Shown here: piece after piece, positions 45,038-52,146 of the stretch
Layout of the letters: each line of letters begins with the position of its first letter
How positions within the stretch are numbered: position 1 is the first letter of the stretch
Assembly: GCF_026586665.1 (NCBI RefSeq)
Contig: NZ_JAODIY010000013.1
Coordinates: forward strand, 1-64,000
DNA: 64,000 nucleotides
Direction of reading: 5' to 3'
From: Halovenus rubra
GTDB taxonomy: Archaea > Halobacteriota > Halobacteria > Halobacteriales > Haloarculaceae
Translations under genes and position numbers: made by a program
The notes under the pieces: model-generated
What the model was told of the DNA's origin: nothing
The model's input: only the letters and a program-made list of their open reading frames with translations
Databases searched by the model: none

Positions 45038-46018
45038 ATGAAGGCGACAGCGAGAGCCCACCCCATCGAAGGGCTCGTCAAATACCACGGGATGCGCGAT
45101 GAAGAGCTTCGGCTTCCGTACCATGATTCGATTAGCCTCTGTACTGCGCCGAGTAACACGACAACAACCGTTGAGTTCGATGACACACGTGACGCAGATA
45201 GATACGTCATCGACGGTGAGGAAATCGATGGGAGAGCCGCAGAGCGTGTCAGACACGTTGTCGACTACGTTCGCGAACTCGCAGATATTGACACCCGGGT
45301 TCGATTCCGGTCAGAAAACTCGTTTCCGACCAACGTTGGTTTTGGCTCGTCAGCTTCAGGATTCGCGGCGGCTGGGATGGCCCTCTCGGAAGCTGCAGGG
45401 CTGGACCTGACGCTGCCCGAAGTTTCGACGATTGCGCGCCGTGGCTCGTGCTCTGCCGCGCGGGCAGTGACTGGCGGCTTCTCACATCTCCGAGCAGGCT
45501 GCAACGACGACGACTGTCGCTCCGAAGTTGTCGCCTCCCCAGACGCGTTTGACGAAGATCTCCGAATTATTGGCGCGCTGGTTCCGTCCTACAAGGAGAC
45601 AGAACATGCACACGAGGAAGCCGCAGCGAGTCATATGTTCGATGCCCGAATGGCTCACGTCCACGGTCAAATCGCAAAAATGCGGGACGCACTGCAAGAC
45701 GGGAACTTCCATCGCACTTTCGAGTTGGCCGAGCAAGATACACTCTCACTGACCGCAACAACAATGACTGGCCCATCCGGGTGGGTCTACTGGCAGCCCG
45801 AGACAATCAAGGTGTTCAACACAGTCAGAGAGCTTCGGACCGACGAAGAGATACCCGTCTACTTCTCAGCCGATACCGGCGCAAGCGTCTATGTAAACAC
45901 GACTGCCGAGTACGTCGACCGTGTCGAAGAAGCGATCAGCGACTGCGGTGTCGAGACTCGTCGGTGGGAACTGGGCGGCCCGGCCCACCTTCTCGACGAG
46001 GACAACGCGCTGTTTTGA
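45038..46018 (+). CDS. mvaD: Phosphomevalonate decarboxylase (MvaD family)
   Basis: 326 residues of the GHMP-kinase-fold decarboxylases. Motifs are HPIEGLVKYHG near the N-terminus, the ATP loop PTNVGFGSSASGFAAAG and RRGSCSAARAVTGGF. Haloarchaea use the variant that decarboxylates mevalonate 5-phosphate to isopentenyl phosphate, as shown in Haloferax volcanii. I assign that activity by lineage, not from residues I can read. It supplies isoprenoid lipid precursors. Start ATG 45038. Confidence 0.88.
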   Translation: MKATARAHPIEGLVKYHGMRDEELRLPYHDSISLCTAPSNTTTTVEFDDTRDADRYVIDGEEIDGRAAERVRHVVDYVRELADIDTRVRFRSENSFPTNVGFGSSASGFAAAGMALSEAAGLDLTLPEVSTIARRGSCSAARAVTGGFSHLRAGCNDDDCRSEVVASPDAFDEDLRIIGALVPSYKETEHAHEEAAASHMFDARMAHVHGQIAKMRDALQDGNFHRTFELAEQDTLSLTATTMTGPSGWVYWQPETIKVFNTVRELRTDEEIPVYFSADTGASVYVNTTAEYVDRVEEAISDCGVETRRWELGGPAHLLDEDNALF

Positions 46019-46779: not shown

Positions 46780-47850
46780 CTACAGCACGGGATAGGGAAT
46801 AGCTGCCGGGTCGACAACCCCAGCAGTTGCCAACAGCGTCAAAAGCAGTGTCGTCACAACAATTGCAACGGCTGGCGGGTCGACGTGTGTGTCACCGTGT
46901 GCGTAGAATACTCGCTGGGCAACCTCACCAAGAACGCCACCAAGAATACCGAACACAGCACCAGCGACGAGCCCAACGACTGGTTCAAACTCGCTTGCGA
47001 CAGCGATTGCCGCGATACCTGCCGGAAGCGCCATATGGTGGGTAACAGGGAACGAGTAGAGACCAAGCGAGAGAAACCCGAGACTGACAAGTGAGAGACC
47101 GAAAGCGAGGAACGCGCTGTTGCTCACAAGGGCAATATACCCCGATGCGAGACCAACCCCAAGCCCAAGGACGACTACGTTACCGAATTCGTAATGGTCA
47201 GGCAACCATACTTCGACGACTTTCCGTCCTTCAGTCCCTTGTTCAGTTTCGAACGATTCCTCTCCCCAGCGGTCGTCACGGACGTGCGGGCTCATATCGA
47301 GAACCGAGCGACTCATACCACGGACGCGGCCGACTAGGGGATAGCCCAGTGTGAGCCGGTGGATGAGTGCTGAAAGCACGACTGCAAGAAAAATCGGGTC
47401 TACCGGTAGCTCTAGACCGGCCGCGACTCTTGCAATGAGCACACCGACGACACCGAAGACACCGCCGACAAGCAAGGTGACAGGGTCAGAGCCAAGCGGC
47501 TTCGTGATGTTCTTGGCCTGATGATAGCGAAACGTGGTGTCAAACGTCTCGCTTCTGCCAACAAACGCGGCAGCAGCGACGCCGCCGGCGAAAGCGACAT
47601 GCGGTCCAAGTACCGGCCCGAGTCCGATTGCGCCGCCGAGACCAGTCGCGTCAACAGTCGCTGGGTCGACACCGAACGTCGATAACGTCGCCCCATCAGC
47701 GTCCAGTGCGCCAAGTAAGCCAGCCATCTCGGCGATGACGATAATGACACCGGCCAAACTCAACGACGGTAACGCTCCGAGTGCCGCACCGAGCATCCCG
47801 CCGGCCAGACCCGCAAGAAGAATTTCGATTGTCAGCTCTGAGAATGGCAT
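46780..47850 (-). CDS. Multi-pass membrane protein of unknown function
   Basis: 356 residues, eight to ten predicted membrane segments rich in Gly and Ala. A hydrophilic loop (about 165-215, with DRWGEESFETEQGTEGRK) lies in the middle. An internal repeat is possible, as segments with GGVFGVVGV and GAVFGILGGVLGE resemble each other. I do not recognise the family. It lies 157 bases downstream of the DUF368 gene on the same strand and may be cotranscribed with it. Confidence 0.75.
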   Translation of the reverse strand: MPFSELTIEILLAGLAGGMLGAALGALPSLSLAGVIIVIAEMAGLLGALDADGATLSTFGVDPATVDATGLGGAIGLGPVLGPHVAFAGGVAAAAFVGRSETFDTTFRYHQAKNITKPLGSDPVTLLVGGVFGVVGVLIARVAAGLELPVDPIFLAVVLSALIHRLTLGYPLVGRVRGMSRSVLDMSPHVRDDRWGEESFETEQGTEGRKVVEVWLPDHYEFGNVVVLGLGVGLASGYIALVSNSAFLAFGLSLVSLGFLSLGLYSFPVTHHMALPAGIAAIAVASEFEPVVGLVAGAVFGILGGVLGEVAQRVFYAHGDTHVDPPAVAIVVTTLLLTLLATAGVVDPAAIPYPVL

Positions 47851-48007: not shown

Positions 48008-49015
48008 TTACTTGACGGCGTCCCCGTCATAGTCGAGGTCATCGGTATAACGGTCGAGAAGAAGAATGATGCCAGTCCCTGCAACCAGCCCAACAGCGAG
48101 ACTGCCGATAGCAGCCATCGTAAACTCATCCGTTGCATCACGCATACGAATCGCGGGGTACCGGAGCGCACCGAGCATTAGACTGACTAGGAACGCAAAG
48201 GTCGCCATACGATACCGTGCAAGGGCTGCACGAACGATAAAGGCGATTGTAAACAATCCGAGAAATGCACCAATCATGAACACGACGACCACAGCAGTTG
48301 CGTCAATGAGAGTATCACTGACACCGCCGCTTACAATGCCAATGACTTCGTCGATGAAGTCGTTCAATGTCTCGGTCATGTGGTCGTACTGTCCGAGCAA
48401 TAGCAAAATGAACGACCCCGAAATGCCGGGCAGAATCATTCCCGAAATCGCAATTAGCCCTGCGCCAAAGATAATCGGGAGTGTATGCGGGAATGCCTCC
48501 GTTGCGGTCTCGCCGGCGACGAGGAACGCAAGAGCAAACCCGACGACTCCCGCAATCATCGGACCTATCTGGGTTAGCCAGCGACGCTCAGCGAGAACCA
48601 GTGCCGATGCGCCGATGAGACCAAAGAAGAATGCAAACGTTGGCCCCGGAATGGCCGATAGTGCCGTTTGTACTAATCGAGAGAGAATGATAACCGCAGT
48701 TAACATCCCTGAACCCAGCGCGAGGAGAAACGGAATATCCATTCCAACAAGCGAATTGTAGAACTCGCGACGATTTTCAGTCCGGTGGAGTGTCGGGATT
48801 TCGGCCAGAATAAATGGATCCAGAGCGGTTACGGCCCCAATAAGGCGCTCGTAAATGCCGGTTATCAAGGCAATCGTCCCGCCGGAGACGCCGGGCACAG
48901 CGTCCGCTGCCCCCATTGCCAATCCCTTACAGTAGATAATCGCGAGACTCGCCAATGCCGGACGGCTCTCGACGATGTCGGCTGTCTCGCCGTCAGTGGA
49001 TGCCACAGCTATCAA
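48008..49015 (-). CDS. DUF368 (PopT-like) polyprenyl-phosphate transporter
   Basis: 335 residues, about nine membrane segments. The family signature is clear: KGLAMGAADAVPGVSGGTIA near the N-terminus, and a second inverted-topology copy, ISGMILPGISGSFILLLLG, in the middle. Bacterial DUF368 proteins recycle undecaprenyl phosphate across the membrane. In haloarchaea the analogous carrier is dolichyl phosphate. The start overlaps the aglB stop by 4 bases, so the two are translationally coupled. I infer that it returns the lipid carrier released by AglB. Confidence 0.88.
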   Translation of the reverse strand: MIAVASTDGETADIVESRPALASLAIIYCKGLAMGAADAVPGVSGGTIALITGIYERLIGAVTALDPFILAEIPTLHRTENRREFYNSLVGMDIPFLLALGSGMLTAVIILSRLVQTALSAIPGPTFAFFFGLIGASALVLAERRWLTQIGPMIAGVVGFALAFLVAGETATEAFPHTLPIIFGAGLIAISGMILPGISGSFILLLLGQYDHMTETLNDFIDEVIGIVSGGVSDTLIDATAVVVVFMIGAFLGLFTIAFIVRAALARYRMATFAFLVSLMLGALRYPAIRMRDATDEFTMAAIGSLAVGLVAGTGIILLLDRYTDDLDYDGDAVK

Positions 49016-52000
49016 CCCATGATTCGAACTGTGGGGTTAGTTACTTCTGAAGGAGCAACGAGAGCGCCCGTCTCGTTACTAGCTCCGTCACCAGAACTGC
49101 TGTCCTCGCCGCTGTCACTGCTCTGACCATCACTCTGTCCGTCTTCACCTGCGCTGGTACTGTTTTCTTCGCCTTCACCGCCAACGGTGACTTCTTCTTG
49201 TTCTAGCTCGACGGTCACTGGCTCAGGGTCTTCACCGATGACCTGTGCCTCGGTGACGTTTGTACTACCTTGCCAGACAAGGAGAGTCCCATTTTCCGAA
49301 GCCTCCGTGTCGGCGGTGAACTGGTACGAGGTCGTAGCGTTTACTGCTGTGTCAGTGTATCCATCTTCGGGACCGTACTCGTCGTATCCAGTCGTCGCGT
49401 ACGGCACAGTCAGTTCGAAGTTCCCTTCGTCATCGGTTGCAACACGGCGCTGGTAAGTGAACTCTTTGCCGTTTTCGGGGTTGAGTTGAACGCGAGTGCT
49501 CACAACGGAGTTCGCGGGACCACTCCCTTCGATAGTAGCACCGGGGACACGTTCAAACGTCTTCGTGAACGCTGGCGTCGTTGGGAACATGTTGTTCAAC
49601 GCTGTAAGCGCAGCCTGCTGGCGCAGCTGTTGGCTTCCTGCTTCCGGATTGGACTGTTCTAGCTGATCGACGAGTGCCTGACTGTATCCCGTGTTTCTGA
49701 CAGTCTGGCGGAACGAGAGTCGCTTTGCCAGGTTGACGCCGTAGTTGCTCATCTGTACGTCCTGCTGGTCTTGTGGGATAGCAGATGTTTCGCTCATATG
49801 GACCAGACGGAAGTTTTCTAGGCCCTCGACTCGTTCGCTTGGCATCGCACCGAGGCCACCAATCTGTGCGGAAGGAGTGTTCTCGACGAACTCTCTGGCC
49901 TGACTCATACTGTCGAACAGTCGGACACTGCCATCGTCGCCAGACGGTGCCTCAATCCAGGATTGTCCCTGAAGTTCCTCGGCCTGGAATTCGCGTTCTT
50001 CGCCTGTCCACTCGACAACAACGGGCTGGGGTGACTGCGCGCTCCCATGATAGTGATACAGCCGTGACACCATCGAATTATAGTAGGGCTGTTTCCGGAT
50101 GGTAGATAGCCGCTGAAGTCTGTCCCGCTCGTTGACATTCATAAGTGTTGTCGTGAAGTCCTGCAGTTGATAATCTGGGTGGAACTCGGGTGGCGCAAAG
50201 AACTTGCCGCGAATCGGCCGTTGGCTCTCTGTTTCGACCATCCGCCAGTCAATCATGACGTACTGCGTCTGCGCGTTTGTATTCTCGTCTGTCTTAGAGA
50301 GTACATCAAGTGCTGTGCTTTCGTCTTGGGCGAGCAGGAAGCGGGCAGCAGTATTAGTCCCTTCCTGGAACGGGTTTGCAGTCGGGATACGCTCTCCGCG
50401 CTGCGTTATCCAGTGTCCGTAGTCCCACCAAGACAACACGCCGTAGGCACCGTCTGGATAATCGAAGTCATCAGTTTCCGTGTACGAACCGAATGGGTCC
50501 ATAGCATCGCCACCAGACTGTCCGTACTGACCGGGTGCCGGTGTGTTCTCATTCATGAACTGAAGGCCATCGTCCCACGCAACGATATCGCCCGGATAAC
50601 TTGATTGGGACGTATACTCTGTTGCGGTCGTCTCCGCGCTGATAACTGGCAGTCCAAGCAGTGGTGCAAACATTACGAACACGATTGCGACAAGCGTGAG
50701 TACCTGATAGGTCTCGAATTCGAACTGTTTTGATGAACCGCCTGTGAGACTGAATATGTACCCGACGAGTGCAGCGTTGAGCCCACCGATGACGAAGGTC
50801 ATGTAGTACGCGAATCGAAGTTGGGTGAGTGTAGCCACAAGTATGATCACACCCCAGACGACAACAAACAGTTGCTCACGGTTTGGCTTGTCCATGAAGA
50901 CTTGCTTCAGGAGAAGAATTGCACCGCCGACTCCAGCAGTAAACAGCGCAAGGTGGTACGTCTCGCGGAGCTGACTGAACTCCATTGGCTGTGCCTCGCC
51001 AATTGTACCGCCTGAACCGGCAGGTTGAGTTATAAACCCAAAGACACGGTTCGTTTGTCTGAACGCGAAATCAAGCGTTTCCGGGAGTACCAACGCCATC
51101 ACGGCGACGGTACCAACCATCGTACCGACGACTGCTACTGGATAATAGTAGCGGGGGAAACCACGTGAATCTAGCTGGCGCGACAACAGGGCGAGGAAGG
51201 CTACACCTGCAACACCAGCCATCGCAATCGCTGGCTGAAGCAGTGACCGGCCTGTGACATTCATGAGTTCGAGTGACCGGGTCGTGCTAAGAATCAGTAG
51301 CGCAGCTGTTGTCATACTGATAATGCCGACGAACGCGGCGTGTTCCGGGCTGTTCCCCCGAACGTGGTCCACGGTCATCTGGAGCAGGAAATAAATGCTA
51401 AGGATTGCGAAAAAGACCATGGCTGGCGGCCACGTCCAGACGAACATTGCCATGACGAGGCCAGCCAACATCGAGTAGCCGATTGTTCCCCGCATCGCGT
51501 CGAATTCGCGCATCCGAACGAGTTCAAACACCGGTTTTTCGTCTTCTGCCCGCGAAATTGCCACCATCACCGCGAGGACACTGAGTATCATGAACAGAAC
51601 CTCGATGGCGTGGTGATCGCTACTGCCTGCGATCGTCACCGAAAGATACCGGTCAGGCATGAATGCCATCGTTGCGACAGAGACAAGCCCACCAAGCCGG
51701 CCACCGAGACGTTTCCCGATATAATAGGCAGGAACAGTGGCCACCAGTGCAAGGAACGGTGGCGCAATCAAGAATATCTCGCGAACAAGACTATCACTCG
51801 GGTTGCCAAGCCCGACGATAAGTGCGACAAATGCGATTAACTGGTCGTACAGTGTTCCGAACTGTTGGGGCGACGTTCCGTATGGGAAGTACGTAAACGG
51901 GTCGAACGGCATCGTCGACGGGAAGTTTTCGACCGTATATTCGACCATCCGAAGGTGGTACCACGGGTCGTTACCCGTGTAATAAACCGACCCATCGATC

Positions 52001-52146
52001 ATGAATCGACCGTATTTCCGCAACCGATTCCACAGAATGAATCCAACGAGGAGCACGAGCACTGGTACGTGATAGTATTCGGTAAACCACGCAGCCAGCG
52101 CTTTTGATTCCGACTCCTCGGAAAGCTGCTCACGCCAGTTGCTCAT
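49012..52146 (-). CDS. aglB: Dolichyl-phosphooligosaccharide-protein glycosyltransferase AglB
   Basis: 1044 residues from ATG 52146. The N-terminal half has about 13 membrane segments. The first external loop has the metal-binding YYTGNDPWYHLR. The hallmark WWDYG is at about residue 570 (VLSWWDYGHWI). The external C-terminal domain (about 550-980) is followed by a Ser/Gly/Glu-rich tail. It transfers lipid-linked glycans to Asn in N-x-S/T sequons of S-layer and other surface proteins. It lies between a small upstream gene and the coupled DUF368 gene. No glycosyltransferase cluster is adjacent. Confidence 0.95.
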   Translation of the reverse strand: MSNWREQLSEESESKALAAWFTEYYHVPVLVLLVGFILWNRLRKYGRFMIDGSVYYTGNDPWYHLRMVEYTVENFPSTMPFDPFTYFPYGTSPQQFGTLYDQLIAFVALIVGLGNPSDSLVREIFLIAPPFLALVATVPAYYIGKRLGGRLGGLVSVATMAFMPDRYLSVTIAGSSDHHAIEVLFMILSVLAVMVAISRAEDEKPVFELVRMREFDAMRGTIGYSMLAGLVMAMFVWTWPPAMVFFAILSIYFLLQMTVDHVRGNSPEHAAFVGIISMTTAALLILSTTRSLELMNVTGRSLLQPAIAMAGVAGVAFLALLSRQLDSRGFPRYYYPVAVVGTMVGTVAVMALVLPETLDFAFRQTNRVFGFITQPAGSGGTIGEAQPMEFSQLRETYHLALFTAGVGGAILLLKQVFMDKPNREQLFVVVWGVIILVATLTQLRFAYYMTFVIGGLNAALVGYIFSLTGGSSKQFEFETYQVLTLVAIVFVMFAPLLGLPVISAETTATEYTSQSSYPGDIVAWDDGLQFMNENTPAPGQYGQSGGDAMDPFGSYTETDDFDYPDGAYGVLSWWDYGHWITQRGERIPTANPFQEGTNTAARFLLAQDESTALDVLSKTDENTNAQTQYVMIDWRMVETESQRPIRGKFFAPPEFHPDYQLQDFTTTLMNVNERDRLQRLSTIRKQPYYNSMVSRLYHYHGSAQSPQPVVVEWTGEEREFQAEELQGQSWIEAPSGDDGSVRLFDSMSQAREFVENTPSAQIGGLGAMPSERVEGLENFRLVHMSETSAIPQDQQDVQMSNYGVNLAKRLSFRQTVRNTGYSQALVDQLEQSNPEAGSQQLRQQAALTALNNMFPTTPAFTKTFERVPGATIEGSGPANSVVSTRVQLNPENGKEFTYQRRVATDDEGNFELTVPYATTGYDEYGPEDGYTDTAVNATTSYQFTADTEASENGTLLVWQGSTNVTEAQVIGEDPEPVTVELEQEEVTVGGEGEENSTSAGEDGQSDGQSSDSGEDSSSGDGASNETGALVAPSEVTNPTVRIMG

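Follow-up and report, generated by a model that had tools for sequence, protein, structure and literature searches.

Linkage of a PopT-family (DUF368) gene to aglB points to a candidate for dolichyl-phosphate return in Halobacteria

The aglB and DUF368 genes

The window, the whole 64,000-nucleotide stretch of DNA that was analysed, carries the gene of the oligosaccharyltransferase AglB, and the gene of a DUF368 protein lies directly 3′ of it. The features of the locus are as follows.

49012..52146, minus strand: aglB, archaeal oligosaccharyltransferase, 1044 aa from ATG at 52146
49004..49015, minus strand: aglB/DUF368 junction, with the aglB stop TGA at 49014-49012 and candidate DUF368 starts TTG at 49015 and GTG at 49006
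48008..49006, minus strand: DUF368 / PopT-family polyprenyl-phosphate translocase gene, 332 aa from GTG at 49006

The adjacency of the two genes on one strand, proposed in the initial annotation, is borne out by the profile matches: AglB matches TIGR04154 (E 5e-244, 812 bits against a cut-off of 450) and DUF368 matches PF04018 over residues 34-285 (E 2e-58, 198 bits against a curated cut-off of 26), a family whose Pfam title is now 'Undecaprenyl phosphate translocase-like'. AglB also matches PF02516, PF22627 and PF18079 (domain names AglB_core-like and AglB_L1) and contains the motifs NDPWY and SDHH, with the catalytic WWDYG at residue 573 conforming to WWDxG. It is the only full-length AglB in the window's genome (98.7% complete), in which DUF368 is likewise single copy. 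Elsewhere in the genome (G000:C1:127554-129596) and in several congeners there is a paralogue resembling STT3, about 815 aa long and with an AglB_L1 domain, which matches TIGR04154 with E between 1e-22 and 1e-30. An example from a congener (L250:1084-3531) has NDPYF and GFIDHP instead of NDPWY and SDHH and lacks WWDxG. A second, unidentified oligosaccharyltransferase has been reported for Haloferax volcanii (PMC3871713), to which this paralogue is perhaps, speculatively, relevant.

About 2 kb from the pair, at 45038-46018 on the plus strand, lies a diphosphomevalonate-decarboxylase-like gene of isoprenoid synthesis (MVD-like_N, GHMP kinase fold). The ORF at 46780-47850 on the minus strand encodes a 356-aa membrane-protein-like product with neither a Pfam nor an NCBIfam match; several congeners have a homologue 3′ of DUF368, and in two other loci (L067 and L178) one lies further away on that side.

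The junction was first read as a four-base overlap with translational coupling. That overlap (TTGA) requires the TTG at 49015, which would give a protein of 335 aa, and is probably wrong, as this start is found in no congener. The GTG at 49006 (+5) is likely to be the preferred start, leaving a gap of 5 nt, because in seven of the nine congener loci that include aglB a GTG stands at +2 or +5 after the aglB stop and none of the ten DUF368 loci of the genus starts at -4. A 5-nt gap is still compatible with an operon. Spacing was also compared in 66 distinct linked loci of the class, taking as the start the first ATG or GTG that leaves over 18 residues ahead of the PG[V/I]SG motif, from which real starts may differ. 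By this rule 16 loci overlap (ATG or GTG at -4 or -1), 22 are spaced by 0-10 nt, 6 by 11-50 nt and 19 by 51-300 nt, and 3 have an intervening gene. The spacing of -4 to +10 nt in 38 of the 66 would fit a single transcript with coupled translation.

The two halves of the DUF368 protein are homologous (hhalign probability 97.9, E 5e-13), forming a two-fold internal repeat. In the AlphaFold2 model (pLDDT 90.5, pTM 0.85), built from an alignment of 71 sequences from the window and the fetched loci, the helices break at both PG[V/I]SG motifs, one in each half. The predicted architecture matches the two-fold symmetry and the two re-entrant loops described for PopT (PMC10216114). Asp38, Ser44, Thr47, Tyr55, Ser199, Tyr210 and Arg285 (335-aa numbering) are conserved in at least 80% of the 71 rows. 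A sequence search of the PDB gave no solved relative, and Foldseek gave no match to the model with E <0.001. A ZIP zinc transporter, the best row of a second structural comparison, was considered as a relative and rejected, the similarity (Z 9.1, rmsd 4.1 over 158 residues) being too weak for a helical protein.

Linkage across Halobacteria and in other archaea

Of 292 Halobacteria genomes, 289 have DUF368 and 289 have AglB, usually with one copy of each per genome. Linkage, defined as DUF368 lying on the strand of aglB and no more than 3.5 kb downstream of it, was scored in the 80 genomes with complete coordinates for both genes. The pair is linked in 58 of them, covering 29 of 42 genera and all eight families sampled, mostly with 100-430 bp between profile edges; three genomes have room for an intervening gene. 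Within the genus of the window, every one of the 13 relatives in which a single contig carries both genes has the pair. The adjacency is therefore not limited to the genome in which it was noticed. The genes are apart in the remaining 22 genomes, and most of the losses fall in two families (f3, 12 of 18 genomes; f1, 7 of 14).

Linkage of this kind could be a frozen ancestral neighbourhood with no functional meaning. A single ancestral event would suffice to account for all linked genomes, and the linkage is confined to one class. The surroundings of the pair, however, have been reshuffled: among the 24 linked loci with 4 kb of downstream sequence, no other downstream gene family is common to more than five, yet the two genes have stayed together at close spacing while these surroundings change. 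We regard a meaningless relic as improbable. The upstream neighbourhood is weakly tested, with just seven loci having enough upstream sequence.

A tree of 151 DUF368 proteins (quick method, SH-aLRT supports) places all Halobacteria copies in one group (support 100), with linked copies at its base and throughout. A single nested clade (support 96), spread over several families, holds 28 of the unlinked copies. As linked copies are basal and most unlinked copies nested, the most economical reading is that the linked state is most likely ancestral in Halobacteria, the root within the group not being firmly placed. The nested clade points to one translocated paralogue that may then have spread from lineage to lineage and replaced the linked gene. 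Both forms, linked and unlinked, occur in two genomes (G005 and G025), whose relatives of the same genus keep the unlinked copy only. Where the linkage to aglB is broken, a DUF368 copy is retained. HVO_RS12060, the DUF368 protein of H. volcanii, belongs to the same family and class as that of the window. It is probably of the unlinked form, since we take the gene beside aglB in H. volcanii to be aglM and not DUF368.

One genome of the window's genus (G607, a MAG about 73% complete) lacks aglB between the DUF5804 gene and DUF368 (L231, 1200-1560). An ORF of about 18 codons is left at the position of aglB, and TIGR04154 has no match elsewhere in the genome. This is either a natural deletion of aglB that spared DUF368 or an artefact of assembly; DUF368 in place without aglB means that it may not depend on AglB. 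Three other congeners have a second full-length AglB (G606:C1:1465111, G617:C10:428 and G618:C82:6754), lying at a great distance from DUF368 or on a different contig, and no second DUF368 gene.

Outside Halobacteria, 54 of the 312 genomes sampled from the phylum carry DUF368, 53 of them together with STT3, and none of the 54 has the aglB-DUF368 pair. The control genomes of M. jannaschii, S. acidocaldarius and M. acetivorans have STT3 and lack DUF368. Since most other archaea sampled in the phylum are without it, DUF368 cannot be a general archaeal recycler. In one family (f30), DUF368 lies 12-19 kb from STT3 in six of ten genomes. This was not counted as a link because in the locus inspected (L208) mostly unrelated genes separate the two and a upp-like gene precedes DUF368; the interval, named by sequence reading, holds a thermosome gene, a DUF1464-like gene and others and, next to STT3, a few genes of sugar metabolism. 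The only near-link noticed outside the class is a single case in a Thermoplasmata MAG (L088, 1192-7849), where STT3, AMMECR1-like, dihydroorotase-like, DUF368 and inositol-phosphatase-like genes (again named by reading the sequence) follow one another on the same strand within a stretch of housekeeping genes.

Proposed return of dolichyl phosphate

In H. volcanii, dolichyl phosphate is the carrier of the glycans that AglB transfers (PMC3871713). The literature searched names no protein that returns dolichyl phosphate in archaea. We consider it probable that DUF368 is a PopT-type polyprenyl-phosphate translocase that returns the dolichyl phosphate released by AglB in Halobacteria. At the outer face, AglB would transfer the glycan off its dolichyl-monophosphate carrier, thereby releasing dolichyl phosphate on that side. 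DUF368 would take up the released lipid via its two symmetric re-entrant hairpins and bring the phosphate head group back to the cytoplasmic face, making the carrier available for reloading by AglJ- and AglD-type glycosyltransferases. Keeping the two genes together would allow carrier release and carrier return to be made together. Because AglB uses dolichyl-phosphate-linked glycans (PMC3871713), transfer from a monophosphate carrier should free dolichyl phosphate directly, with no pyrophosphatase step required. Dolichyl phosphate as the substrate, the direction, the service to AglB and co-transcription are what we infer; transport of polyprenyl phosphate from the outer to the inner leaflet is predicted for the window protein by analogy and published for its relatives only (PMC9876793).

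The initial annotation had proposed DUF368 as the recycler in archaea. Within Halobacteria this is upheld by the linkage, the architecture and the finding that H. volcanii HVO_RS12060 at least partly complements the V. cholerae delta-vca0040 C55-P translocase mutant (Sit et al., PMC9876793). For archaea at large it fails, DUF368 being present in so few of the genomes outside the class and never next to aglB. Against a role in the service of AglB stand the 22 of 80 Halobacteria with the genes apart, the lack of any linked pair among the 54 genomes outside the class, and the DedA proteins, which could do the same job. The complementation, moreover, is partial and was seen in a bacterium with C55-P (PMC9876793).

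UptA and other DedA proteins (PF09335) are polyprenyl-phosphate flippases like PopT but by published description a separate protein family (PMC10216114). They were found in all 81 Halobacteria of the phylum sample, so DUF368 need not be the sole recycler; the only match in the window's genome lies on contig C2, which is not the contig of aglB. A replacement of DUF368 by DedA in other archaea was considered and not adopted. Outside Halobacteria, DedA occurs in 12 of 54 DUF368-bearing and 128 of 258 DUF368-less genomes, about 130 having neither, and this contrast is a weak trend only, as the counts are uncorrected for relatedness.

DUF368 could instead be a general recycler of polyprenyl phosphate, serving exopolysaccharide, AglS mannosylation and N-glycans and sharing the work with DedA, which could cover its loss. 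The link to aglB would then reflect the biggest consumer and no dedicated function. This overlaps the AglB-serving reading in substrate and direction and differs from it in the degree of dedication to AglB. Besides the ubiquity of DedA, it is favoured by the genomes that keep DUF368 far from aglB, by G607 with no aglB at all, and by the conditional and redundant roles of such recyclers in bacteria (PMC9876793; PMC10127716). The conserved neighbour is nevertheless aglB and not other glycan genes, and the unlinked copies show local synteny only, with no conserved glycan-related partner. We hold the general role to be a serious contender, if somewhat short of probable. In the opposite direction, AglB and DUF368 might form a physical unit with direct hand-over of dolichyl phosphate, DUF368 being the dedicated recycler of the class and the translocated paralogue taking its place where the link is broken; this stronger form of the proposal appears doubtful.

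A link to aglB would equally suit an outward flippase of the loaded dolichyl-phosphate oligosaccharide. The translocation mechanism of the main glycan has been described as unknown, with AglR apparently involved (PMC4335974). AglR and Agl15 are, however, the flippase candidates (PMC3871713), and bacterial DUF368 acts on free C55-P, a phenotype that the H. volcanii homologue partly complements (PMC9876793). We therefore think it very unlikely that DUF368 exports the loaded carrier, and favour return of the empty one.

The linkage makes DUF368 the leading candidate for the return of dolichyl phosphate after N-glycosylation in Halobacteria. A class-wide and probably ancestral link to a known recycler family names a candidate in organisms with good genetics.

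Comparison with known systems

The premise of the proposal, that bacterial DUF368 proteins recycle undecaprenyl phosphate, is accepted in the literature (PMC9876793; PMC12826051), and the enrichment of DUF368 in Halobacteria has been noted (Sit et al., PMC9876793). No paper joining DUF368 and AglB was found in an incomplete search; Roney & Rudner 2023, described as using syntenic analyses (PMC10216114), may already show the synteny.

The closest known system is PopT / VCA0040 (PF04018, DUF368, COG2035; NF052564, NF052563), with which the window protein shares the family match, the two PG[V/I]SG motifs and the two-fold repeat. Identity to bacterial and methanogen members of the family is about 31-41% (alignment A2). 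The protein scores below the NCBIfam cut-off of 400 bits for the bacterial PopT equivalogs (173 for NF052564 and 84 for NF052563), and by these matches it is classed as a family member and not as a bacterial PopT equivalog. It is an ordinary member of a known family, and its value lies in the strength of the gene context and in its testability. In contrast to bacterial PopT, its expected substrate is dolichyl phosphate and not undecaprenyl phosphate, and its gene adjoins that of an oligosaccharyltransferase.
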